From a virus, in IMG/VR virus record IMGVR_UViG_3300025131_004497, positions 1 through 23,250 of that record: a DNA stretch of 23,250 bases; one strand, 5' to 3'. Every line of letters begins with the position of its first letter. Position 1 is the stretch's first letter. The translations under genes were made by a program, and so were the position numbers. Positions 1-23,181 of this stretch are shown here, piece by piece. Below the pieces are notes generated by a model. That model was not told where the DNA came from. It ran no database searches and saw only the letters and a list, made by a program, of their open reading frames with translations.

Positions 1-125
1 ATGACTGGAAAGGTTATTTAGAGGATAGAAGACCAGCAAGTAATGCTAATCCATATGATATTGCAAAAGAGATAGTAAGTGTGTTGAATAGGGTGAATGT
101 CCCTATTTATATCAACGGAGCGTAA
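1..125 (+). CDS. Glutamine synthetase, C-terminal end (partial)
   Basis: The frame beginning at base 3 is open from the window edge to TAA at 123-125, so only about 40 C-terminal residues are visible. They contain KGYLEDRRPASNANPY, very close to the C-terminal KGY(F/L)EDRRP(A/S)(S/A)N.DP(Y/F) signature of type II glutamine synthetases (ATP-dependent ligation of ammonia to glutamate), where the arginines lie by the active site. The tail then reads IYINGA and stops. The stop codon lies within an inverted copy of the dispersed hairpin repeat (115-160), so the extreme C-terminus may have been altered by that repeat. A phage-encoded glutamine synthetase could raise glutamine for nucleotide synthesis; that role is inference. 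The rest of the gene is outside the window. Confidence 0.65.
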   Translation, partial: DWKGYLEDRRPASNANPYDIAKEIVSVLNRVNVPIYINGA

Positions 126-160
126 AACCCACGGGTCTTTAGCAAATGGGTAGTTCACAA
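115..160 (-). repeat. Dispersed hairpin repeat, copy f (minus orientation)
   Basis: Read on the minus strand it runs GTGAACTACCCA, a short loop region, then TGGGTTTTACGCTCCGTTGA. It shares both ends with the copies at 4059, 9131 and 18249. The ACCCA/TGGGT arms can pair. It overlaps the stop codon of the glutamine synthetase gene. Confidence 0.7.
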
Positions 161-172
161 TTAAACACTACT

Positions 173-283
173 ATGGTTAATTTCGATGAGTTTGATGGAA
201 TGTACAACGAAGATGGTACATTTAACTACAACAATTTAGGTGACCCCGATGAGATACATGAGTTCGAGTTATCAAGCATTTAA
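173..283 (+). CDS. Small acidic protein, unknown
   Basis: ATG at 173 to TAA at 281-283 gives 36 residues, MVNFDEFDGMYNEDG..., rich in Asp, Glu and Asn. An in-frame ATG at 146 would add nine residues but lies in the hairpin repeat, so 173 is preferred. No recognisable domain. It sits between the glutamine synthetase gene and a host-like promoter at 315. It is short enough that it may not be a real gene, although its amino-acid composition (acidic, few rare residues) is protein-like. Confidence 0.35.
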   Translation: MVNFDEFDGMYNEDGTFNYNNLGDPDEIHEFELSSI

Positions 284-314
284 CAACTAATTTCAAAAAA
301 GTTTCACTAAAAGC

Positions 315-345
315 TTGCATTATCCAAAAAGATATGGTATATTTG
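315..345 (+). promoter_or_regulatory. Bacteroidetes-type promoter
   Basis: TTGCAT (315-320), 17 bases, TATATTTG (338-345): an exact fit to the Bacteroidetes primary-sigma -33/-7 pattern TTG-n-TAnnTTTG. It reads toward the short ORF at 405 and the terminator at 530. Confidence 0.75.
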
Positions 346-404
346 TACTCCAATTAAGAAATGAAAATTTGCACTTTTTATTAAGTGCCACATATTTAAA
401 AGAA

Positions 405-494
405 ATGGAAAACGTTTATACGACATATCAGGGAAAACAGCAACCGCAAGGCACGAAGCCGAGCGCACTGGATTTGTCGTATCTAGTTTTCTAA
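405..494 (+). CDS. Very short ORF downstream of a promoter, unknown
   Basis: ATG at 405 to TAA at 492-494 gives 29 residues (MENVYTTYQGKQQPQG...). It is the only credible reading frame in a compact transcription unit bounded by the promoter at 315-345 and the terminator at 530-562. The transcript could instead be a small non-coding RNA of about 200 nt. No domain is recognised. Confidence 0.35.
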   Translation: MENVYTTYQGKQQPQGTKPSALDLSYLVF

Positions 495-529
495 CTTTAT
501 AGAGATAAAAAACACACATAGATATTGCG

Positions 530-562
530 AAAGCCTCAGTGGAAACACTAGAGGCTTTTTTT
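530..562 (+). terminator. Rho-independent terminator
   Basis: The arms AAGCCTC-AGTG and CACT-A-GAGGCTT pair around a GAAA loop with one bulged base, followed immediately by a run of seven T. It closes the 315-494 transcription unit. Confidence 0.85.
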
Positions 563-632
563 GTTGCTTGTATTTTGACAACACTAAAAATAAAATACGG
601 TTCTTTGATATCGTGGTAATTGAAAAATAAAT

Positions 633-705
633 TGAGAGGTAGCTTAAACTACAAAGCCCCATCCGTTGAGGATGGTGTATGAAGGTGTGAACCCTTCCCT
701 TTCAA
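633..705 (+). tRNA. tRNA-Gln-like (anticodon TTG), degenerate
   Basis: A 73-nt sequence folds into a full cloverleaf. Acceptor TGAGAGG/CCTTTCA (one G-T), D stem GCTT/AAGC, anticodon stem CCATC/GATGG, five-base variable loop, T stem GAAGG/CCTTC. The anticodon position reads TTG (Gln), and a first pair of T-A is typical of tRNA-Gln. Conserved loop bases are missing, however: position 33 is G rather than T, the D loop has no GG, and the T loop is TGTGAAC rather than TTCnAnY. The stems are better preserved than chance, but the molecule may be a decayed or highly specialised tRNA. Confidence 0.45.
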
Positions 706-712
706 CTAATAT

Positions 713-785
713 AGTGTAGTATATCAATTGGAAGATTACACCGTTTGGGACGGTGAGGTTGCTGGTTCGAGTCCAGTCTACGCTA
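713..785 (+). tRNA. tRNA-Pro (TGG)
   Basis: Canonical 73-nt cloverleaf: acceptor AGTGTAG/CTACGCT with discriminator A785, D loop containing GG, anticodon stem CACCG/CGGTG around loop TTTGGGA (T33 present, anticodon TGG, G37 as usual for Pro), variable AGGTT, T arm GCTGG-TTCGAGT-CCAGT. CCA is not encoded. It lies eight bases after the Gln-like sequence. Confidence 0.88.
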
Positions 786-807
786 CTATGAATAACAAAT
801 AATATAA

Positions 808-884
808 CGGGTGGTTATGCAGATGGATATACAACGGTACCTTGGAAGTGTCGGGTGAGCCAGATTCGAATCTGGCTCACCCGA
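808..884 (+). tRNA. tRNA-like sequence, possible Pro(TGG), overlaps a palindrome
   Basis: Acceptor CGGGTGG (808-814) pairs with TCACCCG (877-883). Anticodon stem GGTAC/GTGTC (two wobble pairs) encloses CTTGGAA, anticodon position TGG. The D region contains GATGGAT. The T stem GCCAG/CTGGC is perfect, but the T loop ATTCGAAT has eight bases instead of seven. The whole 3' half is part of the 44-bp palindrome at 846-889. It could be a tRNA whose 3' half was remodelled, or a coincidental fold. Confidence 0.35.
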
Positions 885-889
885 CACTT
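846..889. repeat. 44-bp perfect palindrome
   Basis: Bases 846-867 are the exact reverse complement of 868-889, with the centre in TTCGAA. As RNA it would form a ~20-bp hairpin with a T-loop-like apex, resembling a tRNA acceptor/T-arm minihelix. It is followed at once by TTGACA, the -33 element of the next promoter, and by five T at 895-899, so it may also act as a terminator or insulator. Confidence 0.9.
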
Positions 890-922
890 GACATTTTTGT
901 ACTTTAAGCTTATATTTATATG
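888..922 (+). promoter_or_regulatory. Promoter of GIY-YIG gene 1 (hybrid motif)
   Basis: TTGACA (888-893), 17 bases, TATATTTA (911-918), which runs into TATG just before the ATG at 924. It combines the host-like -33 spacing with the ATTTATATG motif found directly upstream of several other genes here, and predicts an almost leaderless mRNA. Confidence 0.55.
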
Positions 923-923
923 T

Positions 924-1556
924 ATGAGGAAAGAACGAAAATACAATTACATCTACAAGACCACTTGTAACGTAACTGGTAGATATTACATTGGTATGCA
1001 TAGTACTGATGACCTGAATGATGGATATATGGGTTCAGGTAAACGCCTGTGGAATTCATTTAACTATCATGGAAAGGATAACCACTCAATGGAAATTCTT
1101 GAGTATCTACCGACCAGAAAGGAGCTTAAGAAGCGAGAAGCTGAGTTGGTCAATGAGGATACGTTGAAGGATGAGATGTGTATGAACTTGATGACTGGTG
1201 GTCAGGGTGGTCATGGGTTTTGGCATGAAGAACATAGGACAAATTTCATTAAGGCTGGTGCTAAAGCTTTTAGTGATAAATTTAAAAATGATATTGACTT
1301 TAGAGAGAAGAGATTGAAAATGTTAGCTAATAATAGTAAGGTTAATGTAGAAGAAGGTAAAATGGTACCACCAGACTGGACTGGTAAGAAACATACCGAA
1401 GAGACTAAAGAGAAAATGAGGAAGTCTAAGAACGTAGGTAAAGCCAACTCTCAATATGGTACTTGTTGGATAACCAGAGATGGTTCCAATAAGAAGATAA
1501 AGAAAGAAGACCTAGATGAATACCTAGAAATGGGTTGGATTAGAGGAAGAAAGTAG
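924..1556 (+). CDS. GIY-YIG homing endonuclease 1
   Basis: 210 residues. The N-terminal GIY-YIG nuclease domain shows YIY (residues 9-11), YYIG (21-24), then GSGKRLW and a conserved Glu/Asn region (MNLMTGG). It is followed by a NUMOD3-type DNA-binding repeat (TGKKHTEETKEKMRKSK) and a C-terminal QYGTCWI...NKKIKKEDLDEYLEMGW segment common in phage GIY-YIG proteins. Such enzymes nick or cut a specific site and spread their own gene by repair. The ATG at 924 is chosen because the nuclease domain begins right after it and it sits just 3' of the promoter motif; an upstream in-frame GTG at 855 lies inside the palindrome. The gene is embedded in a tRNA-like region rather than between ordinary genes. 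Confidence 0.9.
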   Translation: MRKERKYNYIYKTTCNVTGRYYIGMHSTDDLNDGYMGSGKRLWNSFNYHGKDNHSMEILEYLPTRKELKKREAELVNEDTLKDEMCMNLMTGGQGGHGFWHEEHRTNFIKAGAKAFSDKFKNDIDFREKRLKMLANNSKVNVEEGKMVPPDWTGKKHTEETKEKMRKSKNVGKANSQYGTCWITRDGSNKKIKKEDLDEYLEMGWIRGRK

Positions 1557-1557
1557 A

Positions 1558-1586
1558 TACGGCAATTAGTTGTCGTAACTGCCGTA
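1558..1586 (+). terminator. Hairpin after GIY-YIG gene 1
   Basis: TACGGCA (1558-1564) and TGCCGTA (1580-1586) form a 7-bp stem starting one base after the endonuclease stop codon. It is followed by an A-rich rather than a T-rich tract, so it may act as an mRNA 3' end or be a weak terminator. Confidence 0.45.
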
Positions 1587-1745
1587 GAAAATGCGGCAAA
1601 AAATATAAAGGATGATTACAGCAAACAAAAAAATTTGACTCTTAATCAAAAAGTGATATGCAAATTGGCAAGCGACCAGACTTTTAATTCTATTATTTAC
1701 CATTTACTTGAATTTCAAATATTTGGGTTTATATTCAGGATGGTC

Positions 1746-1758
1746 TATATTTATTAGT
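1746..1758 (+). promoter_or_regulatory. ATTTAT-type start-proximal motif
   Basis: TATATTTATTAG ends one base before the ATG at 1759. It is a close variant of the ATTTATATG motif seen before other starts in this window. Confidence 0.4.
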
Positions 1759-2178
1759 ATGAGCATCAAACGGAAATTAAAGTCCTTACTAATAGAGAAT
1801 GATATTAATACGTCACTTAGACGCATTGGTGACCAAGTGGCATCAAAACTGAAGTGCGACTCTAGAGGTTCATGTATTCATTTCGCTGAATTGTTCATTC
1901 AAGAAGTTGAAAAAATAAATCCAGACCTATTAAACCATTTCAATGTGATTGAAGGGTATGTATCCGAATTGGATTACCCGCAAGAACATACGTGGATAGA
2001 GTTACCCAACGGGGATACCATAGACCCAACCATAGCTCAATTTGGTAAAGACCATGAAGGGCATACCGATAGAATAGTTTATAGAGGTACTGGTATGGAT
2101 TATTTAACCAACTACATGGCTCACGATGATACCTATGAAAAGGAGCGTGAGAACTTCCCAACAAAATATTTCAAATAA
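1759..2178 (+). CDS. Unknown protein with Cys/His/Asp triad-like motifs
   Basis: 139 residues from the ATG at 1759, which directly follows the motif at 1746; an upstream in-frame ATG at 1708 would add residues encoded across that motif. Conserved-looking residues are spaced as in papain/transglutaminase-like folds: GSCIHFAELF (Cys39), EHTWIELPNG (His77) and IDPT (Asp89). This Cys...HxW...(I)DPT pattern occurs in many uncharacterised phage proteins. A thiol-peptidase or transglutaminase-like activity is possible but not shown; the fold assignment is inference from the motif. It lies between the first endonuclease and degenerate tRNA-like sequence. Confidence 0.6.
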   Translation: MSIKRKLKSLLIENDINTSLRRIGDQVASKLKCDSRGSCIHFAELFIQEVEKINPDLLNHFNVIEGYVSELDYPQEHTWIELPNGDTIDPTIAQFGKDHEGHTDRIVYRGTGMDYLTNYMAHDDTYEKERENFPTKYFK

Positions 2179-2556
2179 GTGAATATCGTATTTGGGTGCC
2201 GATGAAATATTTCGGTAACCCCTACTCACGAAACATTTACTGGATGATGCCCTAGTTTGTACCTAGGAGAAGGCGGCTCGATTCCAACCTACCCGACACT
2301 TGACTTTTCGTCTCGTTTACGTATATTCGTATTATGGAAGCTACATCAGAGGAACGTTGTTAAAATAAATGGGTATGCTTGGGGTGTGTGAATCCCGCCT
2401 GACAGAGAGTCGGGTACTTAAAAGGTTAAGGTACAGAAAGTTCACAGTATCACTGAAACTTCGAAGATGGGTGATATGAATGCGAGTAAGATACTGTTAA
2501 TGTTATCGATGACAAAGATAGTAAGGTTCGAACCCTCCCATACCACAATTAAATAT
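2179..2556 (+). other. Non-coding stretch with tRNA-like fragments
   Basis: No credible gene. It contains a tRNA-Thr-like 3' two-thirds at 2241-2296: anticodon stem CCTAG/CTAGG around TTTGTAC (TGT), a T-loop-like CTCGATT, and a 3' end in ACCCGACACTTGAC, but no matching 5' acceptor strand. A host-like promoter TTGACT-16-TATATTCG (2300-2329) follows. Further tRNA-like pieces are GGTTCGAACC (2525-2534) followed by CCATACCA, and the possible partner GGGTATG at 2371, too far away for an ordinary tRNA. It reads as a decayed or rearranged tRNA cluster, or as a structured RNA I do not recognise. Confidence 0.4.
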
Positions 2557-2632
2557 GCGATTGTAGTTTAACACTAGTAGTAAAACAACACCACTCCAGG
2601 TGTAGATGTTGATGCAAGCTCAACCAATCGCT
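2557..2632 (+). tRNA. tRNA-Gly-like (TCC) with abnormal anticodon loop
   Basis: Acceptor GCGATTG/CAATCGC is a perfect 7 bp with discriminator T2632; GCG start and U73 are both typical of tRNA-Gly. D stem GTTT/AAAC has a long 13-nt loop. T stem GTTGA/TCAAC is perfect with loop TGCAAGC. The anticodon arm pairs as ACACC/GGTGT with a 6-nt loop ACTCCA, or as ACAC/GTGT with an 8-nt loop CACTCCAG; no standard 7-nt loop is possible. TCC (Gly) is at the apex. It may be a functional unusual tRNA or a decaying one. Confidence 0.5.
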
Positions 2633-2687
2633 CAACTCAAACATTCAGTATGGAAGAGTTCGTGTGAAAATTTAATCTATGAAACAG

Positions 2688-2729
2688 GAAGCCCATCCCA
2701 TCGCCTATGGCGTGGGTGGGTAGTTCACC
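2688..2729 (-). repeat. Dispersed hairpin repeat, copy e (minus orientation)
   Basis: On the minus strand it begins GTGAACTACCCACCCAC, then GCCATAGGC and GATGGGATGGGCTTC. It is the same family as copies a (7235) and b (9131), whose 3' half also reads GGGCTTC. It separates the tRNA-Gly-like sequence from a degraded reading frame. Confidence 0.75.
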
Positions 2730-2797
2730 TTCAACAATATATTAATGGCGGTGTATTTCCCCAGTCTTCATATTCTATTATTTCCAAATTTGATTGA

Positions 2798-2890
2798 ACG
2801 GTATCAATAATACAGAGGTTAGAAGGTAGTGGTCTGAATATGTCAGATTACATTCGTGACTTGATTGCTCGTGATTTACTGAATAATTGA
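2798..2890 (+). pseudogene. Possible remnant of a small DNA-binding protein
   Basis: The frame after the TGA at 2795 reads about 30 residues ending RLEGSGLNMSDYIRDLIARD then LLNN and TGA at 2888-2890. LN.SDYIR.LI is reminiscent of ribbon-helix-helix proteins. There is no suitable start codon except an internal ATG leaving 16 residues. The same frame upstream of the TGA is open but crosses the tRNA-like sequence and the hairpin repeat, so this is best seen as a relic. Confidence 0.25.
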
Positions 2891-2892
2891 AC

Positions 2893-2903
2893 TATTTATA
2901 TGT
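2893..2903 (+). promoter_or_regulatory. ATTTATATG motif before GP88
   Basis: TATTTATATGT ends at the base before the ATG at 2904. No TTG element is found at the host-type spacing, so this is the phage-specific class of start-proximal motif. Confidence 0.5.
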
Positions 2904-3986
2904 ATGGACAAGTTAAGTAGATTAGTTAGGGAAGCTTTAGCCTTTGAAGGTGAGATAAATGAAGTCGATTGGGAAGATACCTTTCAGGACGTGCAGAAAC
3001 GTTGTATGGCACCAGATGTTGTGGTGGACTACCTTAATAGGGTAAGAGCTAACGCAGGTAAAGGGTATGGAGAAAGAGAGAAGTTCGACAAAGGACAACC
3101 TTATGTACACGCTAAATCTTCATTCTACAAGAAAGAAGATACGGAAGTAGATATCGACCACTTCATCAAGAAAATGACAGAACCACCAATTAACGTGGTT
3201 AATACAAATGAAAAAATTCTCAAAAGTGGTGGACACCACGAATACATCTACAAAACAGGAATCCCAGCATTCCGTGGTATCGCCTACGACATTGCTAAGG
3301 ACAAGTTTTATAGTATCAATACTTGTCCAGGTGCTGGTAGTTGTGTTGCTATCTGTTACGCAATGAAAGGTAGGTACCTGATGTACCCAAATTCATATGA
3401 CAGCATGACCAGAAGATTGAATTATCTTCTGAATTACCCAGACAAATACGAAGCTCAAATGTACACTGAGTTAAAGGCTAAGTGTACGGAACATAAGGCT
3501 TTAGAAGGTTATAAATCTAAGGTGTTATTACGTTGGAACGACTCTGGCGACTTCTTTGCTAAGAGGTATGTCAAGATGGCTGAAGATGTTATTGCTAAGT
3601 TAAAGGCTGAAGGCTACAATGTTGACAGTTACGCTTATACAAAGGTTGCAGATGTTGCGGCTGATAGTGACGTTGCTTCTACTTTCTCAGCAGGTGCCAA
3701 CAAGAAACAGTCAAAACAAGTGAAATCAAAGCAGAAAATGTCATTGGTTATTCCTAGAAAAGTTTTCCAAGGTTTGGACTTCATGAAAACGGGTGATGAA
3801 GCCGAATTGAAAGATAGGGTTGCAACCTTCTTCAACTTTAAAATAGAGGATGTTATTACTTATGATGAGTTGATGACAACACCAAAACAAGGTGACCCAA
3901 AATGGCATGTTATTGTAACACCAAATGATGGTGACGATGCAGCCTTCCGACCAGACGTTAAGAGCGTTCTACTTACACAACATTAA
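2904..3986 (+). CDS. GP88-family protein (Cys-motif, radical-SAM-like)
   Basis: 360 residues. The region INTCPGAGSCVAICYAMKG carries C141-x5-C147-x3-C151, followed by Y..SM.RR.NYLL and LLRWNDSGDFF (R210, GDF 215-217). This layout identifies the phage gene-product-88 family. The cysteine cluster and the LR....GDF strand resemble the iron-sulfur and SAM-binding segments of radical-SAM-type barrels, though the cysteine spacing is not the classical CxxxCxxC. The biochemical role of the family is not established to my knowledge. The N-terminal ~100 residues are charged and not recognised. The start at 2904 is supported by the motif immediately upstream. The C-terminal part after residue ~250 is rich in Lys/Asp and may be an accessory domain. 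Confidence 0.7.
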   Translation: MDKLSRLVREALAFEGEINEVDWEDTFQDVQKRCMAPDVVVDYLNRVRANAGKGYGEREKFDKGQPYVHAKSSFYKKEDTEVDIDHFIKKMTEPPINVVNTNEKILKSGGHHEYIYKTGIPAFRGIAYDIAKDKFYSINTCPGAGSCVAICYAMKGRYLMYPNSYDSMTRRLNYLLNYPDKYEAQMYTELKAKCTEHKALEGYKSKVLLRWNDSGDFFAKRYVKMAEDVIAKLKAEGYNVDSYAYTKVADVAADSDVASTFSAGANKKQSKQVKSKQKMSLVIPRKVFQGLDFMKTGDEAELKDRVATFFNFKIEDVITYDELMTTPKQGDPKWHVIVTPNDGDDAAFRPDVKSVLLTQH

Positions 3987-3994
3987 GATTAGGG

Positions 3995-4025
3995 TTGAAA
4001 TTCTTATAGCTCTGTAGTATGTTTG
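3995..4025 (+). promoter_or_regulatory. Bacteroidetes-type promoter
   Basis: TTGAAA (3995-4000), 17 bases, TATGTTTG (4018-4025). It is five bases from an ATG at 4030 and drives the 4030-4428 unit. Confidence 0.7.
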
Positions 4026-4029
4026 TATT

Positions 4030-4062
4030 ATGGAAAAAAATCTATTTAGTAAGGTGTGGTGA
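4030..4062 (+). pseudogene. 10-codon leader or gene cut short by a repeat
   Basis: ATG GAA AAA AAT ... GTG TGG TGA: ten codons, ending on the TGA that is part of the hairpin repeat's own GTGAAC start. Its ATG lies five bases after a good promoter. It could be a leader peptide, or the surviving 5' end of a gene replaced by repeat copy c. Confidence 0.35.
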
Positions 4063-4110
4063 ACTACCCACCCATCTTCAGTGGTTGGGTTTACGCTCCG
4101 TTATATAAAA
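4059..4110 (+). repeat. Dispersed hairpin repeat, copy c
   Basis: GTGAACTACCCACCCATC, TTCAGTGG, TTGGGTTTACGCTCCGTTAT: the arms CCCACC/GGTTGGG pair, and the 3' tail ACGCTCCGTTATATAAAA is identical to copy d at 18249. It lies between the promoter at 3995 and the gene at 4132. Confidence 0.8.
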
Positions 4111-4131
4111 CAAACAATAAACAACAAGAAT

Positions 4132-4428
4132 ATGAAAAATGTAGTAATAGTAGACATTGATACTGACAGAGAACAAGCAGTACAAATTATGAAGCCATCA
4201 GGTGGTGGTGTTCCATCAAATGCTGAGGAAGCTCAAAACATGGTAGCAATGGATATTAGGTCATTGACCGAAGGTTTGGTAACATTGGTTATTGGCTCCC
4301 ATTTGAATGACTACAGCAGCAAGGAAGACAATTTTGCTGACATTGTAGACCATTTAAGAGGTGGGCTTACCCTTGACGAAAATGGTATTGAAATAACAGA
4401 CGAAGAAGTTGGGAAAAACGGGGGGTAA
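4132..4428 (+). CDS. Unknown 98-residue protein
   Basis: Starts MKNVVIVDIDTDREQAVQIM and continues with a short alpha/beta-looking sequence and an acidic C-terminus ending EEVGKNGG. The ATG at 4132 follows an A-rich leader (AACAACAAGAAT). An in-frame upstream GTG at 4081 lies inside the hairpin repeat and is rejected. It is transcribed from the promoter at 3995 through the repeat, whose hairpin would lie in its 5' UTR. No family is recognised. Confidence 0.7.
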   Translation: MKNVVIVDIDTDREQAVQIMKPSGGGVPSNAEEAQNMVAMDIRSLTEGLVTLVIGSHLNDYSSKEDNFADIVDHLRGGLTLDENGIEITDEEVGKNGG

Positions 4429-4446
4429 ATGTTGCGAATTGTGTGA

Positions 4447-4624
4447 GTGAGAATAAGAGTGGACGAAATACTTATAATTGGTTACGAACATGACTATGTG
4501 AAGAAATCAGTTCACCACGTTTTAGATGAAGAAGGGTCAAATCAGTGATGAAATGAAGGCAGACCTGTCTGATGACGAAGCTTTGTATGACCCATATTTA
4601 CTTACATGGGTTTTATGTCTTTAG
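4447..4624 (+). pseudogene. Small gene with a +1 frame change, unknown
   Basis: The GTG frame from 4447 (or 4459) reads DEILIIGYEHDYVKKSVHHV then LDEEG and reaches TGA at 4546-4548. The +1 frame from the GAA GAA GGG T run near 4537 continues GQISDEMKADLSDDEALYDP and stops at 4622-4624. Joined at the glycine codon they give one ~58-residue protein. It could be a frameshift mutation, a sequencing indel in GGG, or two separate mini-ORFs. Its end overlaps the start of the PrsW-like gene, as expected for a real operon member. Confidence 0.4.
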
Positions 4625-5418
4625 TATTTTTTTCGATTATTGCAGGGTTAATTTACTCTGGGATAATATATGTCACAGTACCATATAAAATTATAGACCT
4701 TAAGGTAGCCTTTGGTTACTTATTAGGTGGTTCATTAGCGGTTGCAGGTGTTATGGGTGTACATGAGTTATTCCCATGGTGGTTAAGTTTGGGTCACGAC
4801 TTAACAGTCTACCTATTCGATTGGTCACCAATCATCAATCTATTCAAACTACAATTAGAGAACTTTATACAAGTTGGTTTCCTTGAGGAATTCATGAAGT
4901 TAGGTGTGTTCACCTTGTATGGGTTTGTCAGGACAGAGAAAGGTGACCACCCAGTCGCTACCATGTTCTACATGATGATGATTAGTATGGGTTTCGCTTT
5001 GATTGAAAATTACGCTTATGCTATTGGTGCTTTTGGTAGTAATGCTGAATACCCATATCAGACGTTGATAATCAGGTCATTCACTGCAACGTTAGGTCAT
5101 ATGATATTTGGACTCATCACTGGATTCTGGCTAGCCTTGGGTAGAATACCAATTGGTACATACAGTAGGTCTTGGTTTGATGTTGTAGTTAATAAAACAC
5201 CAACAATCAGGAGATGGATATTTATCGTAATAGGGTTAGTGGGCGCTACCTTATTTCATGGTCTATACAACTTCAATTTTGATACATTCGGTGGTGCTGT
5301 TATGGGTATCATATACTTACAATTGACAGTCGGGTTATTGGCTACTAGTTGGTGTTTCAAACACATAAATGACACATTTAGGAAATCCAAGAAAAAAAAG
5401 TTGACAGTCTCGAAATAA
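4606..5418 (+). CDS. PrsW-like intramembrane metalloprotease
   Basis: 270 residues with about seven hydrophobic segments. The PrsW/CAAX-protease-type motifs are all visible: GFLEEFMK (Glu94, Glu95, Lys98), GFALIENYAYA (Glu134, Asn135), LGHMIFG (His165) and LFHGLYN (His218). These residues bind the catalytic zinc within the membrane in this superfamily. PrsW proteins cut membrane anti-sigma factors in Bacillus. In a phage genome with two sigma factors a similar regulatory cut is conceivable, but attack on a host membrane protein is equally possible. The start could be ATG 4606 or the internal ATG 4615. The basic tail KSKKKK after the last membrane segment suggests a cytoplasmic C-terminus. Confidence 0.82.
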   Translation: MGFMSLVFFSIIAGLIYSGIIYVTVPYKIIDLKVAFGYLLGGSLAVAGVMGVHELFPWWLSLGHDLTVYLFDWSPIINLFKLQLENFIQVGFLEEFMKLGVFTLYGFVRTEKGDHPVATMFYMMMISMGFALIENYAYAIGAFGSNAEYPYQTLIIRSFTATLGHMIFGLITGFWLALGRIPIGTYSRSWFDVVVNKTPTIRRWIFIVIGLVGATLFHGLYNFNFDTFGGAVMGIIYLQLTVGLLATSWCFKHINDTFRKSKKKKLTVSK

Positions 5419-5435
5419 TTCGGTTATTTTGTTTC

Positions 5436-5512
5436 ATGGATTTAATATCAACACACGTAGTAAAACATTAGACTTAGGTGTACATGGAAATCTCTTCGGG
5501 GGTAGAATGTTT
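5436..5512 (+). pseudogene. Broken 5' end of an acyl-CoA thioesterase gene
   Basis: ATG at 5436 reads MDLISTHVVKH then TAG. With a one-base frame change it continues DLGVHGNLFGGRMF. This aligns over its whole length with the start of the intact thioesterase at 6252 (MKLISTFVVKASDLGLHGNL, then FGGRML), with many synonymous differences, so it is a diverged homologue rather than a fresh duplication. Homology ends at GGRM, in the hotdog active-site helix region, and the sequence then runs into the leader of the GIY-YIG gene. It sits 17 bases after the PrsW stop, where a complete gene would be expected. Confidence 0.75.
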
Positions 5513-5528
5513 TTTAGGTTTACCGACA

Positions 5529-5539
5529 TATTTATATGT
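5529..5539 (+). promoter_or_regulatory. ATTTATATG motif before GIY-YIG gene 2
   Basis: TATTTATATGT at 5529-5539, 11 bases before the ATG at 5551. The intervening AAAGGTAA could serve as a ribosome-binding site. Confidence 0.5.
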
Positions 5540-5550
5540 AAAGGTAAATT

Positions 5551-6255
5551 ATGTACGTATACGAAACAACTAATTTAGTTAATGGAAAAAAGTACATCGG
5601 TGTTTGTGTAAACAGTGATGAAGGTAAAAGAAGGCGATATTTAGGTTCTGGTAAATTATTAAAATTAGCCATTAAGAAATATGGTAAGGAAAATTTTAGT
5701 AAAAGGATATTGAAAGAATTTGACGATAAGGTTAGTGCTAGAGCATATGAAAGAGAGTTAATTGAAGAGTTAGACGCTATAGACGACCCAACCTATTATA
5801 ATTTAGTTGCTGGTGGTTTTGGTGGGAGCATTAAAGGTGGTAAACTAACTGATGAGACGAAGAAAAAGATTAGTAAAGCGTTAACTGGTCGGAAACGTAG
5901 TAAGGAAACCATTAAAAAAGTTACTGAAAAGTTAAAGGGTTATGAGTGGACGGAAGAAGATATTGAGAAAAGGCGACAAGGATTAATTAAGTACCATCAA
6001 GAAATGACGGATGAAGCCAAAGCTCAACGAGGGTTGAATATTTCTAATGGTTTGAAGGGTAAAGAAGTAAAAGATAGTACTAAGATTAAACTGTCTAAAC
6101 GTAGTGCTAAGTTGAGTGAGGATGAGGTTAGAACCATTTTTTTAGATAGAGACGCTGGCATGTCAGGCAAAGAGTTATCGGTTAAATATGGGGTTGGAAT
6201 TAGTTCTATAAGTGAAATTTTAAATAGAAAAACGTATAAATGGGTGGAGATATGA
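5551..6255 (+). CDS. GIY-YIG homing endonuclease 2
   Basis: 234 residues. MYVYETTNLVNGKKYIGV gives the GIY-YIG pair at the very N-terminus, with YLGSGK and a long helix containing ERELIEE, then YNLVAGGFGG. The middle carries NUMOD3-type repeats (TDETKKKISKALTGRKRSKE). The C-terminus (KLSEDEVRTIFL...GVGISSISEILNRKTYKWV) is a helix-turn-helix DNA-binding module. The gene separates a broken from an intact copy of the thioesterase 5' end, and its TGA (6253-6255) overlaps the intact gene's ATG (6252). The endonuclease's last codons (GGGTGGAGAT) therefore supply the thioesterase's ribosome-binding site and start. Confidence 0.92.
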   Translation: MYVYETTNLVNGKKYIGVCVNSDEGKRRRYLGSGKLLKLAIKKYGKENFSKRILKEFDDKVSARAYERELIEELDAIDDPTYYNLVAGGFGGSIKGGKLTDETKKKISKALTGRKRSKETIKKVTEKLKGYEWTEEDIEKRRQGLIKYHQEMTDEAKAQRGLNISNGLKGKEVKDSTKIKLSKRSAKLSEDEVRTIFLDRDAGMSGKELSVKYGVGISSISEILNRKTYKWVEI

Positions 6256-6629
6256 AATTAATAAGTACCTTTGTAGTTAAAGCTAGTGACTTGGGGCTAC
6301 ATGGTAATTTGTTTGGTGGGCGAATGTTAGCCAAAGCAGATGAGGCTGGTGCAGCATTTGCATCTGAAGCCGCAAGGTCAACCATGCTTGTAACTGTATC
6401 CTTCGGTTCGGTAGAATTCAAGAGACCAGTCAAGTTGGGTCGAATAGTAAAGATGTATGGTGAAACGACAAAAATTGGTACATCATCCATATCAATCAAC
6501 TTAGAAGCTAGGTCATTCAACACATTTACAGGTAAAGAAACGCCAGTATTCTCAACAGATGCGGTATTCGTAAGAATAGATGACGAAGGTTCACCAATTC
6601 CAATAGATAAAACTAAGATAGATGGGTAA
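6252..6629 (+). CDS. Hotdog-fold acyl-CoA thioesterase (YciA-like)
   Basis: 125 residues, the usual size for a single-hotdog YciA/acyl-CoA hydrolase. The N-terminal LHGNLFGGRMLAKADEAGA (residues 16-34) is the family's G.LFGG.ML...DEAG active-site helix, with Asp30 as the likely catalytic acid. VTVSFGSVEFKRPVKLG and GTSSISINLEA follow in the expected order. It would hydrolyse acyl-CoA thioesters in the cytoplasm; substrate unknown. The start is inside the end of the endonuclease gene (ATGA overlap), implying translational coupling to it. The first ~25 codons appear to be a replacement for the broken copy at 5436-5512, so the protein may be a chimera. Confidence 0.85.
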   Translation: MKLISTFVVKASDLGLHGNLFGGRMLAKADEAGAAFASEAARSTMLVTVSFGSVEFKRPVKLGRIVKMYGETTKIGTSSISINLEARSFNTFTGKETPVFSTDAVFVRIDDEGSPIPIDKTKIDG

Positions 6630-7296
6630 GAAAGAATTAACGAAAGAAGAGTTAGAGCTTAAAACTAAAGCGCAATCTCTGACATCTGCGTTAAAGGTGT
6701 TATTAAATGATAGTCTCATGAGTTATGGCAGTTACAGGGAGTTAATTACCCCATTACTAAATAACTATAGGTTTGATATCACCAACCATATTAGTGACTA
6801 TGATACTAATCGTATCATGACTGAGAAGGGTTATGCATCCAGATATCAATTAGAGGAAGAGATAGAGGAAGAGATGCGTAAGGATATGGAAGCCAAAGAC
6901 TTGAATGAAGTGTTCGTTAACGAACTATTAGCCCAAGTGAAAACCAAGTACGATTACCTACCACATCTGGAGAAAGCCCTTGGTGCCAAGTTGGTGGCTG
7001 AGGTAAGAGGTGAGGAATACGTTAGTGATGAGCTTACTGCCGAGGAAACCGTTAATGATGCAAACGCTAACTGCTATTGTAACAAGGTTGTCGGTGCTGA
7101 AGCGTATGAGATTGACGATTGTTGTCGAATGAACGGTAAACAGTCATCTCAACAATGGGTTGGTCACAACAGTAAAGGTGAATTTTATGTTGAGACATGC
7201 TCATGTGGTATGATTTCAAAACCATATTTAGCTGGTGAACTACCCACCCACAGCAGAGCTGATGGGTTGGGCTTCAAGGGTCGCAGACTCACCTAA
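6622..7296 (+). CDS. Unknown Cys-rich protein with repeat-derived C-terminus
   Basis: 224 residues, overlapping the thioesterase by eight bases. The N-terminal 120 residues are strongly helical and charged (EELELKTKAQ, QLEEEIEEEMRKDME). A cysteine cluster follows (NCYCNK, DDCCRM, TCSCGM), plausibly metal binding. The last ~20 residues (GELPTHSRADGLGFKGRRLT) are encoded by hairpin repeat copy a, and the stop lies just beyond the repeat. The natural C-terminus was therefore probably lost or extended by the repeat. No known family. Confidence 0.7.
   Translation: MGKKELTKEELELKTKAQSLTSALKVLLNDSLMSYGSYRELITPLLNNYRFDITNHISDYDTNRIMTEKGYASRYQLEEEIEEEMRKDMEAKDLNEVFVNELLAQVKTKYDYLPHLEKALGAKLVAEVRGEEYVSDELTAEETVNDANANCYCNKVVGAEAYEIDDCCRMNGKQSSQQWVGHNSKGEFYVETCSCGMISKPYLAGELPTHSRADGLGFKGRRLT
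7235..7282 (+). repeat. Dispersed hairpin repeat, copy a (inside a coding end)
   Basis: GTGAACTACCCACCCACAGC...GGTTGGGCTTCAAGGGTC; identical to copy b at 9131-9178 except for one base (CTG versus CCG). It is read through in frame by the upstream gene. Confidence 0.85.
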
Positions 7297-7306
7297 TATA
7301 AATATT

Positions 7307-7337
7307 TTGCAACTGTCGAATATATTTCGTACCTTTG
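7307..7337 (+). promoter_or_regulatory. Bacteroidetes-type promoter
   Basis: TTGCAA (7307-7312), 17 bases, TACCTTTG (7330-7337), 19 bases before the YqeY start. CTAAAGGA lies in between as a possible ribosome-binding site. Confidence 0.75.
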
Positions 7338-7356
7338 CCATCTAAAGGACGTAAAA

Positions 7357-7749
7357 ATGCTATTAGAACAAATTACAGAAGACATTAAGACTGCTATGAA
7401 AAGCAAAGAACCAGCCAAGGTTCTAGTTCTTAGAACACTAAAGGGTGAAATCCAACGAGAAGCTTCAACACCAGATGACGCTAAAATCGTTGCATTGATT
7501 AAGAAGACCGTCAACACCATCAAGGAAACAACTAATGATGTTGAAGAAATTGGTATTCTTGAGGTTTATCTACCAACACAACTATCTTCAGTAGATTTAG
7601 GTGGTTTAGCTTACGAATATATCACTGAAAACAAGCTTGAAGGTGTGGCTGGTCTAGGTAAGACTATGGGACACTTCAAGGCGACCTATGGTGGTCAATA
7701 CGATGGTGGTGAATTAAGTAAAATCGTAAAAGGACACTTAGGGGTATGA
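7357..7749 (+). CDS. YqeY-like (GatB/YqeY domain) protein
   Basis: 130 residues; host YqeY proteins are ~148. The order of motifs matches the family: DIKTAMKSKEPAKVLVLRTL (9-28), the KK..NTIKE helix, EIGILEVYLPTQLS, and the C-terminal GLGKTMGHFKATYGGQYDGG that corresponds to the MG..M......G..DG segment. The domain is shared with the tail of the tRNA amidotransferase subunit GatB and is thought to contact tRNA; standalone YqeY is of uncertain function. A phage copy next to tRNA and IF3 genes suggests a role around translation, which is inference. It has its own promoter, and its TGA overlaps the start of the AAA ATPase. Confidence 0.82.
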   Translation: MLLEQITEDIKTAMKSKEPAKVLVLRTLKGEIQREASTPDDAKIVALIKKTVNTIKETTNDVEEIGILEVYLPTQLSSVDLGGLAYEYITENKLEGVAGLGKTMGHFKATYGGQYDGGELSKIVKGHLGV

Positions 7750-9098
7750 TTGGGATGGGAAAGGAAATGAAGAACGAGGAAATGATGGAAGACGCGGTGG
7801 TAAAGATTACGGAGATTCTTGTCGAAAGAGATGGGGTGTTACCTGACGAAGGGATAGCTGAACCTGAATTGACTGAAAGTGAAGACAAAGAGTCTGAAAG
7901 TAAGGAAAAGAAGGCTACCAACTTCAGTAATGTTTTTAACGTAACGCCAGTTGAAATGGCAATCATAAACCAATACCTATTTGACACACATTGTTCTGGA
8001 TTAGGTGATATGGATGTACCAAATTATGGTCATATCGGTGCAGATGGTAGAGTTAAGTTTGGTGGTTCGTTTGACCACAGTGGTGGATGGTGGTTTAACG
8101 TTAGTTTAACTGGCGTTGAGCACAAGTTGGTTATCCAGACTGTAACATATAAAGATAACTACGATAGACATCACACCCACGTGAACATAACAAGTTCAAG
8201 TCCAATGACATTCGACTCATTTACTGAGGTGTTCGATAACACTAAAAAGTTGGCTTTCAATAACTCCAGATTCAAAGGTAAATGCATTGAGGTCATTATC
8301 GATATGGGCGCTTTCCAAGGTATTAGAAACGTACCAATCAAAGAAGTTGTTGGTGACCTTGTATTGAACCGCACACAAAGGCGATTCATCCAACACTTTA
8401 TAAATCGTGTTAAACGAGGTAGCACAGCAAGGGTGATGTTCAACGGAGTTCCAGGTACTGGTAAGACTGAGAGCATCAGAAAAATCATCAAAGAGTTGAC
8501 ACCAACGTCAACATTCATTATACCAGTATTCAGTACTGTAAGTGACCTTAAGATGATTCTTGAGTGCTGTGAGATATTCGATGATGGTGTTGTTATTATG
8601 GATGACATCGACCTTTACATCGGTTCCAGAGACACAGGTGGTGGAAGTGCTAATCTATTGGGTGAGTTCCTTGCATTCTTCGATGGGGTTAAGAAACGTA
8701 AAATCAACCTATTAGCCTCAACCAACGATAAGAGTTTGGTGGATAAAGCCGCAGAAAGACCAGGTCGTTTTAGCTTTGTTATAGACTTTGATTACTTGGA
8801 AGATGAGCAAGTGATTGAAATTTGCAAACTACATTTGGACAAGAAATGGCAAGTACAGGAAGTGTACGATAAATTAACTGGTAACGTAAACGGTGAGCAG
8901 GTTAAAGTAACTGGTGCGTTTATAGCTAACCTATCAAATAACATCAACGAGATGGCTTTGGACGCTAACGAAGATGAAGACATCGATGCTTGGACGTTAG
9001 AAGATACAGTTAACTTGATTGAGTCACTATACAAAGGGTTCTACCAAAGTCAAACAAGTACGGAAGGGGTGTTAGGGTTTCAATTCGGTAACAAATAA
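7746..9098 (+). CDS. AAA+ ATPase (BCS1/FtsH-like module)
   Basis: 450 residues. An acidic, low-complexity N-terminus (residues 1-58, LTESEDKESESKEKK) precedes a ~170-residue domain of unknown type (GGSFDHSGGWWFNV). An AAA+ core follows: Walker A GVPGTGKT (234-241), Walker B GVVIMDDID (281-289), sensor 1 NLLASTND (N327) and arginine fingers ERPGRF (R338/R341). The lid region ends near residue 425. Such ATPases remodel proteins or complexes; the partner is unknown. Translation is probably coupled to YqeY by the ATGA overlap at 7746. In T4-like phages AAA ATPases serve as clamp loaders or helicases, but this core looks more like the classic AAA subgroup of protein remodellers. Confidence 0.85.
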   Translation: MIGMGKEMKNEEMMEDAVVKITEILVERDGVLPDEGIAEPELTESEDKESESKEKKATNFSNVFNVTPVEMAIINQYLFDTHCSGLGDMDVPNYGHIGADGRVKFGGSFDHSGGWWFNVSLTGVEHKLVIQTVTYKDNYDRHHTHVNITSSSPMTFDSFTEVFDNTKKLAFNNSRFKGKCIEVIIDMGAFQGIRNVPIKEVVGDLVLNRTQRRFIQHFINRVKRGSTARVMFNGVPGTGKTESIRKIIKELTPTSTFIIPVFSTVSDLKMILECCEIFDDGVVIMDDIDLYIGSRDTGGGSANLLGEFLAFFDGVKKRKINLLASTNDKSLVDKAAERPGRFSFVIDFDYLEDEQVIEICKLHLDKKWQVQEVYDKLTGNVNGEQVKVTGAFIANLSNNINEMALDANEDEDIDAWTLEDTVNLIESLYKGFYQSQTSTEGVLGFQFGNK

Positions 9099-9102
9099 CG
9101 AT

Positions 9103-9195
9103 ATGGAAAGAGTGTGCAAAACATGTGGGTGTGAACTACCCACCCACAGCAGAGCCGATGGGTTGGGCTTCAAGGGTCAACGCTCCGTCACATAA
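9103..9195 (+). CDS. Short ORF truncated by a repeat (zinc-knuckle start)
   Basis: ATG at 9103 reads MERVCKTCGC and then runs in frame through hairpin repeat copy b (ELPTHSRADGLGFKG) to TAA at 9193-9195, 30 residues in all. CxxCGC looks like the beginning of a zinc finger whose remainder was replaced by the repeat. The tail is nearly identical to that of the protein ending at 7296 because both are repeat encoded. Confidence 0.35.
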   Translation: MERVCKTCGCELPTHSRADGLGFKGQRSVT

Positions 9196-9196
9196 A
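9131..9196 (+). repeat. Dispersed hairpin repeat, copy b
   Basis: It combines the GTGAACTACCCACCCACAGC...GGGCTTCAAGGGTC body of copy a with the ACGCTCCGTCACATAAAA tail seen in copies c and d. This shows that all copies belong to one family with a body of ~48 bp and a tail of ~18 bp. Confidence 0.85.
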
Positions 9197-9202
9197 ATAA
9201 AT

Positions 9203-9233
9203 TTGGTGGTTTGGAAATAAACCGCTATATTTG
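9203..9233 (+). promoter_or_regulatory. Bacteroidetes-type promoter
   Basis: TTGGTG (9203-9208), 17 bases, TATATTTG (9226-9233), followed by AAGAGGATAAAATGG containing the start at 9257. Confidence 0.72.
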
Positions 9234-9256
9234 CAGTATCAAACTAAGAGGATAAA

Positions 9257-9533
9257 ATGGTAAACTTAAAAACGGAGTACAACCCAGAAGATTATACGGT
9301 AGGTGTACTGGTGGGAAGTTCCATCATTCAAGAAGTCTAAGCAAGGGATGCCTAAGTTGGTTAAGAACGATGATGGTACTTACCGAACAGTTACTAGTCA
9401 CATGCCTGAATTCGACTCTGTTGAAGATGAGCTTGTAACGGTGTTTGAAAATGGTAACATCTTGGTTGATTACACTTTCGAAGAAATTAGAGAAAGAGCG
9501 AGTATTCACGAAGAAACTCTGGAATTAGTATAA
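9257..9533 (+). pseudogene. Small gene with early +1 frame change, unknown
   Basis: The ATG at 9257 is well placed after a promoter and an AGAGGA ribosome-binding site and reads MVNLKTEYNPEDYTVG. In that frame the protein then loses sense and stops at 9341. The +1 frame, blocked upstream by a TAG at 9300, continues from GTG 9303 as YWWEVPSFKKSKQGMPKLVK and runs to TAA at 9531-9533. Joining at the glycine codon (GTA GGT GTA C) gives a continuous ~90-residue protein. Alternatives are independent initiation at GTG 9303, an indel mutation, or a sequencing error. No family is recognised; the C-terminal part is acidic (DSVEDELVTVFENG). Confidence 0.55.
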
Positions 9534-9534
9534 C

Positions 9535-9552
9535 TGGTGTTCAAAAACACCA
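9535..9552 (+). promoter_or_regulatory. Hairpin upstream of a start codon
   Basis: TGGTGTT (9535-9541) and AACACCA (9546-9552) form a perfect 7-bp stem with loop CAAA. It starts just after the stop at 9533 and ends five bases before the ATG at 9558, so it may shape translation initiation or mark an mRNA end; there is no T tract. Confidence 0.45.
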
Positions 9553-9557
9553 CACAT

Positions 9558-9704
9558 ATGGAGTTAGTGAAGAAGAATAAAGGGGTAATCGACCCACACT
9601 TCTCCAAAGATGGTAAGTTCATATCACCATATGCCAGATTTGAACCTACCAGTGAAGGATGGATAATGGCGTTGAAATTTTGTAAATTATTAGATGATGA
9701 GTGA
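9558..9704 (+). CDS. Unknown 48-residue protein
   Basis: ATG at 9558 to TGA at 9702-9704. The sequence begins MELVKKNKGVIDPHFSKDGK and ends LKFCKLLDDE, with a mixed basic and aromatic composition. It overlaps the next gene by 11 bases, the usual spacing here, which supports it being real. No domain is recognised. Confidence 0.55.
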   Translation: MELVKKNKGVIDPHFSKDGKFISPYARFEPTSEGWIMALKFCKLLDDE

Positions 9705-9921
9705 GAATGTAAATGAAGCTAAATGGATTGATGTTACGACACCAGCAAGATTGATTAAAACTTTCAGACTTGGTGAGTACCCAGAGTTGATTCATATTAT
9801 CAGGACTGGGTTTAATGATAAGTATATCGTGGTTTACGAGGATGCTTATGAACTACATACTGGGAAAACTGAAATGATGAACAAGGCGCAAGTGGAAGAA
9901 AAGTTTGGGATAACATTATGA
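9694..9921 (+). CDS. Unknown 75-residue protein
   Basis: Two consecutive ATG codons (9694, 9697) are possible starts. The protein contains ARLIKTFRLGEYPELIHIIR and a C-terminal helix AQVEEKFGITL. Its stop overlaps (ATGA at 9918) the start codon of a broken gene copy. This shows that the original downstream neighbour was a HAD-like hydrolase gene translated by coupling. Confidence 0.65.
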   Translation: MMSENVNEAKWIDVTTPARLIKTFRLGEYPELIHIIRTGFNDKYIVVYEDAYELHTGKTEMMNKAQVEEKFGITL

Positions 9922-10004
9922 GTCTATTAAAATCATTTGATAACGCCTATGCTGATGCTATCCGAAAAGGGTGGGATTACATCTATGTATTCATGCATAA
10001 ATAA
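9918..10004 (+). pseudogene. Broken 5' end of a HAD-like hydrolase gene
   Basis: ATG at 9918 reads MSLLKSFDNAYADAIRKGWD then YIYVFMHK and TAA. It aligns with the start of the intact gene at 10977 (MITRAFENAFRLKGEREWSY then IYVFIDLHST): same length, same F(D/E)NA and W(D/S)YIYVF landmarks, but well diverged. Homology ends at the HAD motif I strand (YVFID), the catalytic aspartate itself being lost. The ATGA overlap with the preceding gene marks it as the original start. The LAGLIDADG gene begins 45 bases downstream. Confidence 0.75.
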
Positions 10005-21834: not shown

Positions 21835-21878
21835 GTCAACCACCCATCCACGCTAAAGCGATGAATGGGCTTGCAAGG
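21835..21878 (+). repeat. Hairpin repeat copy at the TnpB right end
   Basis: GTCAACCACCCATCCACGCT...GATGAATGGGCTTGCAAGG aligns end to end with GTGAACTACCCACCCACAGC...GATGGGTTGGGCTTCAAGG of copies a and b. This links the dispersed repeats to the TnpB element. Confidence 0.75.
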
Positions 21879-21960
21879 CACCTTGCGGTGACTGACATGC
21901 GATTGGGTGGTTGACAACACCCTGCCCATCAAGCAAGCTTCCTTGCGAGATGGGGTGTTT
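21835..21960 (-). ncRNA. Candidate omega (guide) RNA region / right end of TnpB element
   Basis: The tnpB 3' end and the sequence just past its stop are heavily palindromic. GTCAACCACCCA (21835-21846) is the exact inverse of 21904-21915. CCCATC...GATGGG with ACACC/GGTGT pair at 21918-21959. In IS605/IS1341-type elements this position encodes the omegaRNA scaffold, with the guide lying just outside the element. Here the guide would begin at 21834 and read leftward (ATTAAAACTTTATTGTAAAC on the minus strand, approximate). The element boundary is inferred from the similarity of 21835-21878 to the dispersed repeats. Confidence 0.55.
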
Positions 21961-23010
21961 GCTCCTTCGAGCTATATTAATTGCAGCATTTATGTCTGCA
22001 TCATACACGACACCACTTTTAGCGTAAAATCTAATCCCCTTTCGGGTACCCTCTTTTATGCCCGTTACGGAGTCTATCTGTGATGTATATGCTGGTGAAA
22101 CTAAACAAATATGTTTTCCCATATTCTCAGCCTTATAGGTCAATATCCTTCTTAACTCAAAGAGGGGGACTTGACTTATACCATTTTTATTTTGATTCTT
22201 ATACTTTTTTGCTTTGATTCCTTTTAGATTTTCTAAAGAAATAATATTAGCATTTGTCTTTAATATTTCATTAGCAACCAAATGTGTTTGGTTCTTATTT
22301 TTATTTCTTTCTTTCCTTCTTATCTTTTTTAAACGTTTTTTAGCACTTTTAGTGCCTTTAGATTGTAAACATCTCTTAAGGTAACGTAGTTTACGTTTTT
22401 CTTTATTAAACTTTTTATCTATGATAAGTCTACCATCGGAACATGTTGCCACTCTTCTAATACCTAAATCAACACCTAGACATAAATTCATCCTTTGTTT
22501 TTCTTTAGGTGTTACATCGAACGTGAGTGAGATGTAAAACTCACCATCCCTAACAAATATTAATGGGTCTGAATAATCGTATTGTTTCATAAGTTCATCT
22601 AATTTAGGATAATTCTCTATCCTAAATAACTTACGTTTATCGGTGGTGATGATATTAATGATATACTTATCTTTGGTTCTAGAATAAATTCTCTTATCTA
22701 ACCTAAGTGATAGATTATGTTTAACAAATGGTTTAGATAATTTATGTTTATTAGACCGTATGGTTTTATAAGTTGCGAGACATTCTTGTTCCGATTTAAT
22801 AACCACCTGTGACGGAACGTCAGGGTATTCACCTCTAACTTTATAATAGAATTCATTGTGAAGTGATTTAATATTACTAAGACCTTTAAGGTCACCGAAT
22901 TGCAATTTTGAAGCCTTATTAACCAATATGCGTTGCTGTTCCAACAGCAACATTAATAGGTTATCATCTCCACTATTGACTGGTTTTATTTTAGCATTAT
23001 ACGTTATCAT
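21853..23010 (-). CDS. tnpB: TnpB RNA-guided nuclease (IS605/IS1341 type), zinc ribbon degenerate
   Basis: 385 residues, normal length. RuvC motifs: LCLGVDLGIRRVATCSDG (Asp181), NIISLENLKGIK (Glu260) and YDADINAAINIA (Asp337/Asp339), all acidic residues present. VSPAYTSQIDSVTG (305-317) and IRFYAKSG (326-333) occupy the place of the family's zinc ribbon YTSQ.C..CG...F.C..CG, but all four cysteines are replaced (Asp313, Thr316, Tyr329, Ser332). TnpB cuts DNA next to a short TAM using the element's omegaRNA. No TnpA transposase is present. The last ~40 residues are encoded by the palindromic right end. Upstream, TATTTATATAATG precedes the start, the same motif class as the homing endonucleases. 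Target and activity unknown. Confidence 0.88.
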   Translation of the reverse strand: MITYNAKIKPVNSGDDNLLMLLLEQQRILVNKASKLQFGDLKGLSNIKSLHNEFYYKVRGEYPDVPSQVVIKSEQECLATYKTIRSNKHKLSKPFVKHNLSLRLDKRIYSRTKDKYIINIITTDKRKLFRIENYPKLDELMKQYDYSDPLIFVRDGEFYISLTFDVTPKEKQRMNLCLGVDLGIRRVATCSDGRLIIDKKFNKEKRKLRYLKRCLQSKGTKSAKKRLKKIRRKERNKNKNQTHLVANEILKTNANIISLENLKGIKAKKYKNQNKNGISQVPLFELRRILTYKAENMGKHICLVSPAYTSQIDSVTGIKEGTRKGIRFYAKSGVVYDADINAAINIARRSKHPISQGSLLDGQGVVNHPIACQSPQGALQAHSSL

Positions 23011-23064
23011 TAACTTCTTTTAATCTATTACATTATATAAATACAGTAAAAAAATAGAAAGGGC

Positions 23065-23095
23065 TTGTATATTTCAGAATAATTTAGTATATTTG
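23065..23095 (+). promoter_or_regulatory. Bacteroidetes-type promoter
   Basis: TTGTAT (23065-23070), 17 bases, TATATTTG (23088-23095), directed away from tnpB. No gene starts in the next 120 bases. The transcript would contain the hairpin repeat at 23121 and the small hairpin TACTACA/TGTAGTA (23161-23179), so it may be an untranslated leader or a small RNA. Confidence 0.72.
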
Positions 23096-23120
23096 CATTA
23101 ATTAAGGGGTTGGCTGCTTT

Positions 23121-23160
23121 CCTCCCACCCACAGCAAAGCTGATGAGTGGGTTTCCGCAG
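23121..23160 (+). repeat. Hairpin repeat related to the dispersed family, upstream of tnpB
   Basis: CCTCCCACCCACAGCAAAGC, TGATGAGTGGGTTTCCGCAG: the CCCACCCACAGCAAAGCTGATG core is shared with copies a and b, but the GTGAACTA start is replaced. It lies about 110 bp beyond the tnpB start and may be the element's left end or another solitary copy. Confidence 0.65.
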
Positions 23161-23181
23161 TACTACAATGAATGTAGTAAC

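Follow-up and report, generated by a model that had tools for sequence, protein, structure and literature searches.

A perfect 44-bp palindrome within a phage tRNA-Pro gene is most likely the scar of a template-switch mutation

Template switching is documented to make perfect RNA hairpins in one step (Monttinen & Loytynoja 2022, PMC8794818), and SegB-type endonucleases have already been reported in association with tRNAs of many different isotypes (PMC13096335). Here, we analyzed a 23,250-base virus record (the window, referring to the whole stretch of DNA) in which a perfect 44-bp palindrome lies within a tRNA-Pro(UGG) gene and is followed by a gene for a GIY-YIG homing endonuclease. The best explanation of the palindrome was found to be a quasi-palindrome-to-palindrome template-switch mutation in a redundant phage tRNA-Pro gene, to which we assign a probability of about 0.75. 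Similar to the published template switches (PMC8794818), the event proposed here would generate a perfect reverse-complement stem in one step, affect an RNA gene, insert a base opposite an unpaired base and use short homology at the return point. Unlike the published cases, the copy would continue 13 nt beyond the 5-bp T stem already present and rewrite another part of the tRNA, such that the cloverleaf is disrupted and not repaired; in addition, the gene is a phage tRNA, and its presumed ancestral state is deduced from distant homologues.

The palindrome (846-889, no strand assigned) was identified by a repeat search and a palindrome scan. Its two arms (846-867 and 868-889) are each 22 nt in length, 100% complementary and separated by a spacer of 0 nt (22/22 matches), in agreement with a sequence-only reading that had described the palindrome as free of mismatches and its left half as an exact inverse of the right. 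Palindromes with 22-bp arms are expected by chance at ~5e-9 in the window at its base composition, and the runner-up perfect palindromes across all 23,250 bases have arms of only 7 bp. Of the 22 pairs, a tRNA T arm by itself would account for about 8 (5 stem pairs and the self-complementary TTCGAA) and would leave 14 unaccounted for. The predicted hairpin is very stable (z -6.6). The exact 44-mer had 0 matches in viral contigs, in a search that may omit records very near the window, and the palindrome is thus known from one record only; a distant DNA search of 790-900 against phage records returned nothing meaningful (best E 4). Matches of the hairpin to Rfam microRNA models were all sub-threshold and were rejected, as any perfect hairpin would attract such models. 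Another perfect palindrome, of 42 bp and different sequence, was noted on a second phage contig (L073, 7904-7945), where it is apparently intergenic and possibly a terminator.

Two tRNA-Pro(UGG) genes were called by ARAGORN on the plus strand (713-786 and 808-885), so the tRNA cluster that the sequence-only reading had suggested was right in kind. Only the first gene was recognized by Rfam (tRNA model, 52.9 bits), whereas the second, which carries the palindrome, had no match to this model up to an E-value of 10. Both flanks of the palindrome are parts of this single second gene, a placement that the sequence-only reading had missed. The 5′ acceptor strand CGGGTGG (808-814) forms a 7-bp stem with TCACCCG (877-883) of the right arm, the anticodon is at 843-845 and A73 is at 884. 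The right arm (868-889, plus strand) comprises the end of the T loop, the 3′ strand of the T stem (872-876), the 3′ acceptor strand, A73 and the downstream junction CACTT, and the earlier view of this half as a tRNA T arm plus 3′ acceptor strand was borne out by the acceptor pairing and by the match to canonical tRNA-Pro 3′ ends in three other phage contigs. The left arm (846-867, plus strand) occupies the place of the 3′ strand of the anticodon stem, the variable loop and the 5′ strand of the T stem, with GTGTC (848-852) standing where the 3′ anticodon strand would be, GCCAG (859-863) serving as the 5′ strand of the T stem and an extra A at 864. The resulting T arm reads GCCAG-A-TTCGAAT-CTGGC and has an 8-nt loop, one A above the usual 7 nt; this A gives T60 a partner and renders the center exactly palindromic.

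When RNA folding was predicted for this gene, the 20-bp hairpin was found to have an energy of -42.2 kcal/mol compared with -23.2 kcal/mol when the cloverleaf stems were forced. The RNA should therefore form the hairpin instead of the cloverleaf, and the gene (808-884) is probably a tRNA pseudogene that has lost its function. GTGTC, the rewritten anticodon strand, can still pair with GGTAC by means of two G-U pairs, whether by luck or because some tRNA function was kept. The D arm is also poor, and the tRNA may thus have been decaying already before the event. A pseudogene at this position would be tolerated because an intact tRNA-Pro(UGG) gene, the likely backup copy, remains upstream (713-785, plus strand). 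No further RNA genes were detected within 1-3000 by ARAGORN with introns allowed or by a tmRNA search.

Comparison with homologous tRNAs was used to deduce the state of the gene before the palindrome arose. Three tRNA-Pro genes in other phage contigs (L062, L070 and L096) share the same acceptor, CGGGTGG...TCACCCGA. The palindrome is absent from these distant homologues, which have only a 5-bp T stem with a 7-nt loop; in L096 this region reads GCCAG-TTCGATT-CTGGC-TCACCCGA (acceptor TCACCCG), with the T stem and acceptor in common with the window tRNA. The distance from the anticodon to TTCGA is 17 nt in all three homologues versus 19 nt in the window, with the L096 value counted by eye on the printed sequence, the script having misplaced its anticodon. 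The window tRNA is accordingly 2 bases longer than its homologues. One of the extra bases is the A opposite T60, as self-templating of a hairpin predicts, and the near-equal lengths suggest that the left arm replaced a segment of almost matching size. The fetched loci contain 447 distinct tRNAs, among which the perfect hairpin of the 3′ half reaches 20 bp in the present gene and 9 bp in the next best case; thus, the palindrome is a lone outlier and no feature of the family. Searches for unmutated versions of the gene gave 3 matches with GGTACCTTGGAAGTACC, a guess at the ancestral anticodon arm, none of them with a tRNA; 0 matches with the 5′ half of the tRNA; one useful homologue, L096, with the 3′ half; and 20 matches with CACCCGACACTTGAC, none with an evident tRNA context when each surrounding sequence was read. 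As no close relative with an unmutated gene was found, the ancestral left arm was deduced from the distant homologues. The left arm is plausibly a recent inverted copy, the possibility for which the sequence-only reading had advised a comparison with relatives.

We infer both the mutational event and its direction as follows. The starting state would have been a normal T arm, GCCAG-TTCGANT-CTGGC, which is already a near-palindrome. With the bottom strand growing leftwards in replication, a nascent strand, having just passed from 889 to 868 on its template, would fold back at the self-complementary TTCGAA and copy itself for 22 nt. This self-copying would add the A opposite T60, restore the T stem and continue through the 3′ acceptor strand and CACTT, until the strand returned to its true template at an AAGT/ACTT microhomology next to the anticodon. 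Both AAGT (846-849) and ACTT (886-889) are present today at the proposed return point, where AAGT is presumed to be ancestral. In a single event, ~20 nt would be exchanged for 22 nt to yield the perfect palindrome; the product RNA would carry a 20-bp hairpin in place of the cloverleaf, and the tRNA, probably dead, would be tolerated thanks to the intact copy at 713-785. Two observations point to the right arm as the template: it agrees with canonical tRNA-Pro 3′ ends, and CACTTGAC recurs at the tRNA/endonuclease junctions of L027 and L031. Two marks of a template switch were found at the locus: the new segment and a nearby source are exact reverse complements (22/22, spacer 0), and homologues without the copy, here the distant L062, L070 and L096, carry a shorter, imperfect inverted repeat.

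The gene immediately downstream (924-1556, plus strand) was classed as a free-standing GIY-YIG homing endonuclease by family profiles (phrog_314, E-value 5.5e-35; NUMOD3) and by its position between other genes, with the Pfam GIY-YIG model itself not reached; in bacterial genomes, it had one distant match, in a metagenome-assembled genome. It is preceded by a promoter-like block, TTGACA-17-TATATT (888-916, plus strand; promoter scan 11/12), which is conserved upstream of related endonucleases and shares the final two bases of the palindrome. In the window (886-1556) and in loci L025-L072, this GIY-YIG family is fused with the conserved block (TTGACtTTTTTGTACTTT..TATATTTATA) behind a tRNA of nearly any isotype. 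A tRNA-type T arm was detected within 120 nt upstream of related endonucleases in 47 of 56 distinct contexts (window included) versus 18% of stretches drawn at random from these loci. Of the 26 cases in which the distance could be measured, 25 have a block like TTGACtTTTTTGTACTTT that begins 22-24 nt past T54 of the tRNA upstream. When up to 3 substitutions were allowed, such blocks occurred 41 times on the plus strands of the fetched loci, all before this endonuclease, although the endonuclease itself was the ground for fetching many of the loci, such that 41/41 shows linkage within those loci only; at 4 substitutions, extra scattered matches appeared elsewhere. Overall, the endonuclease and its block apparently form a mobile module that sits at the 3′ ends of tRNAs. 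Like SegB-type free-standing GIY-YIG endonucleases (PMC13096335, PMC2988022), the gene lies directly beside phage tRNAs of many isotypes; compared with these systems, the association is tighter here, given the conserved block 22-24 nt after T54. The palindrome is no part of this association.

Related arrangements were also observed. Most of L029, L033, L043, L049, L050 and L056 carry AAACATGTAGAA...GGTTCGATTCCC..CTCCACC instead of a tRNA just upstream of the endonuclease. This sequence looks like a putative tmRNA 3′ end, and the same module may thus also stand behind phage tmRNA genes. Within the window, a second, decayed tRNA 3′ end with a promoter-like block (TCGATTCCAACCTACCCGACACTTGACTTTT...TATATT) and without a palindrome is found at 2278-2330. 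At 2372-2548, GGTATG...GGTTCGAACCCTCCCATACCA resembles the two ends of a tRNA-like RNA ~175 nt apart, with no RNA gene called there by ARAGORN (introns allowed) or the tmRNA search.

The hairpin was also considered as an intrinsic terminator or insulator under selection, set between the transcript of the tRNA and the promoter of the endonuclease, in which the 20-bp stem followed by GACATTTTTG would stop tRNA transcription or protect the 3′ end. A pattern scan scored 846-889 as terminator-like with a T-rich tail, and the 42-bp palindrome of L073 may be a terminator as well. However, the T run begins 4 nt past the stem and belongs to the promoter-like block, which occurs without any palindrome in related loci; furthermore, the hairpin overlaps the tRNA body and has no equivalent in any other tRNA of the set. 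A selected function of this type is therefore unlikely, and of the sequence-only suggestion of a terminator or insulator there remains a possible role that would be incidental, in that the hairpin could influence transcription in passing. A functional minihelix-like or double-stranded small RNA, likewise raised before, would be in keeping with the stability of the hairpin and with a 3′ half that includes the acceptor strand and A73 of tRNA-Pro, yet the hairpin is not conserved, its Rfam matches are confined to the sub-threshold microRNA models and no evidence of a functional minihelix was found, which leaves this reading barely credible. An assembly or amplification artefact, in which the inverted half was made by the assembler or as a chimeric amplification product, would account for the presence of the palindrome in a single record and for the lack of other copies of the 44-mer among the viral contigs searched. 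Against this, the flanks are colinear within one tRNA gene. A chimera formed by fold-back should carry inverted flanks as well, and a misjoin would hardly come within 2 nt of the length of the tRNA segment that was replaced; we regard an artefact as quite improbable. The right arm belongs to one gene with the left flank (808-845), an arrangement that also speaks against the proposed recombination product of two tRNA 3′ ends, which can be set aside.

The adjacent endonuclease offers a further route to the palindrome, in which this GIY-YIG enzyme or a relative cut the tRNA close to its T arm and the palindrome resulted from fold-back repair, perhaps with destruction of the cut site. The T-arm contexts upstream of related endonucleases, which lie directly behind tRNA 3′ ends, make tRNA 3′ regions plausible targets; the center of the palindrome falls in the T loop; and segB of T4 lies between tRNA genes and targets the intergenic region of the tRNAs (PMC2988022). 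Nonetheless, no such scar or comparable hairpin was found in other tRNAs adjoining related endonucleases, and replication-error templating suffices without a break, so a cut scar is very improbable. The broader version, that the palindrome is the footprint of repair after the endonuclease cut a T arm conserved in any tRNA gene, and of resistance to that cut, is highly doubtful; if true, the endonuclease gene module could insert at any tRNA 3′ end. The idea that the palindrome is itself a recognition site for the neighboring enzyme was not supported and was rejected as a family feature, with relatives of the endonuclease sitting behind ordinary tRNAs.

The phage background of the locus was examined as well. 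An A1-like DNA transfer protein of the window is closest (~42% identity) to proteins of Maribacter and Flavobacterium phages, and the host is therefore probably a member of the Bacteroidota. The sister contig L003, the only near-identical contig, matches window positions 1-127 and 1546-9983 at 99.98-100% and is without the whole of 128-1545, including the tRNA-Pro, palindrome and endonuclease (junction at L003 4642/4643). As L003 retains the last endonuclease codons, it probably arose by deletion, apparently a recent one. An OrfB_IS605/TnpB-type gene with a Cas12f1-like TNB domain was noted on the minus strand at 21853-23172; by its start, 23096-23172 and L003 1710-1786 have identical sequences and make up a short repeat at two places of near-identical phages.

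Taken together, the palindrome is real, and instead of being a new element it is most likely a clean and unusual scar that a known mutational process left in a redundant tRNA; a perfect palindrome within a tRNA cluster is not necessarily a functional element. The tight fusion of the endonuclease module to the tRNA 3′ end may merit separate study. As a template switch, the locus would be a clean case from nature in which a single copying error rewrote one section of a tRNA gene while over-running its starting helix, and would show that tRNA T arms are able to seed palindromes in phage tRNA arrays.
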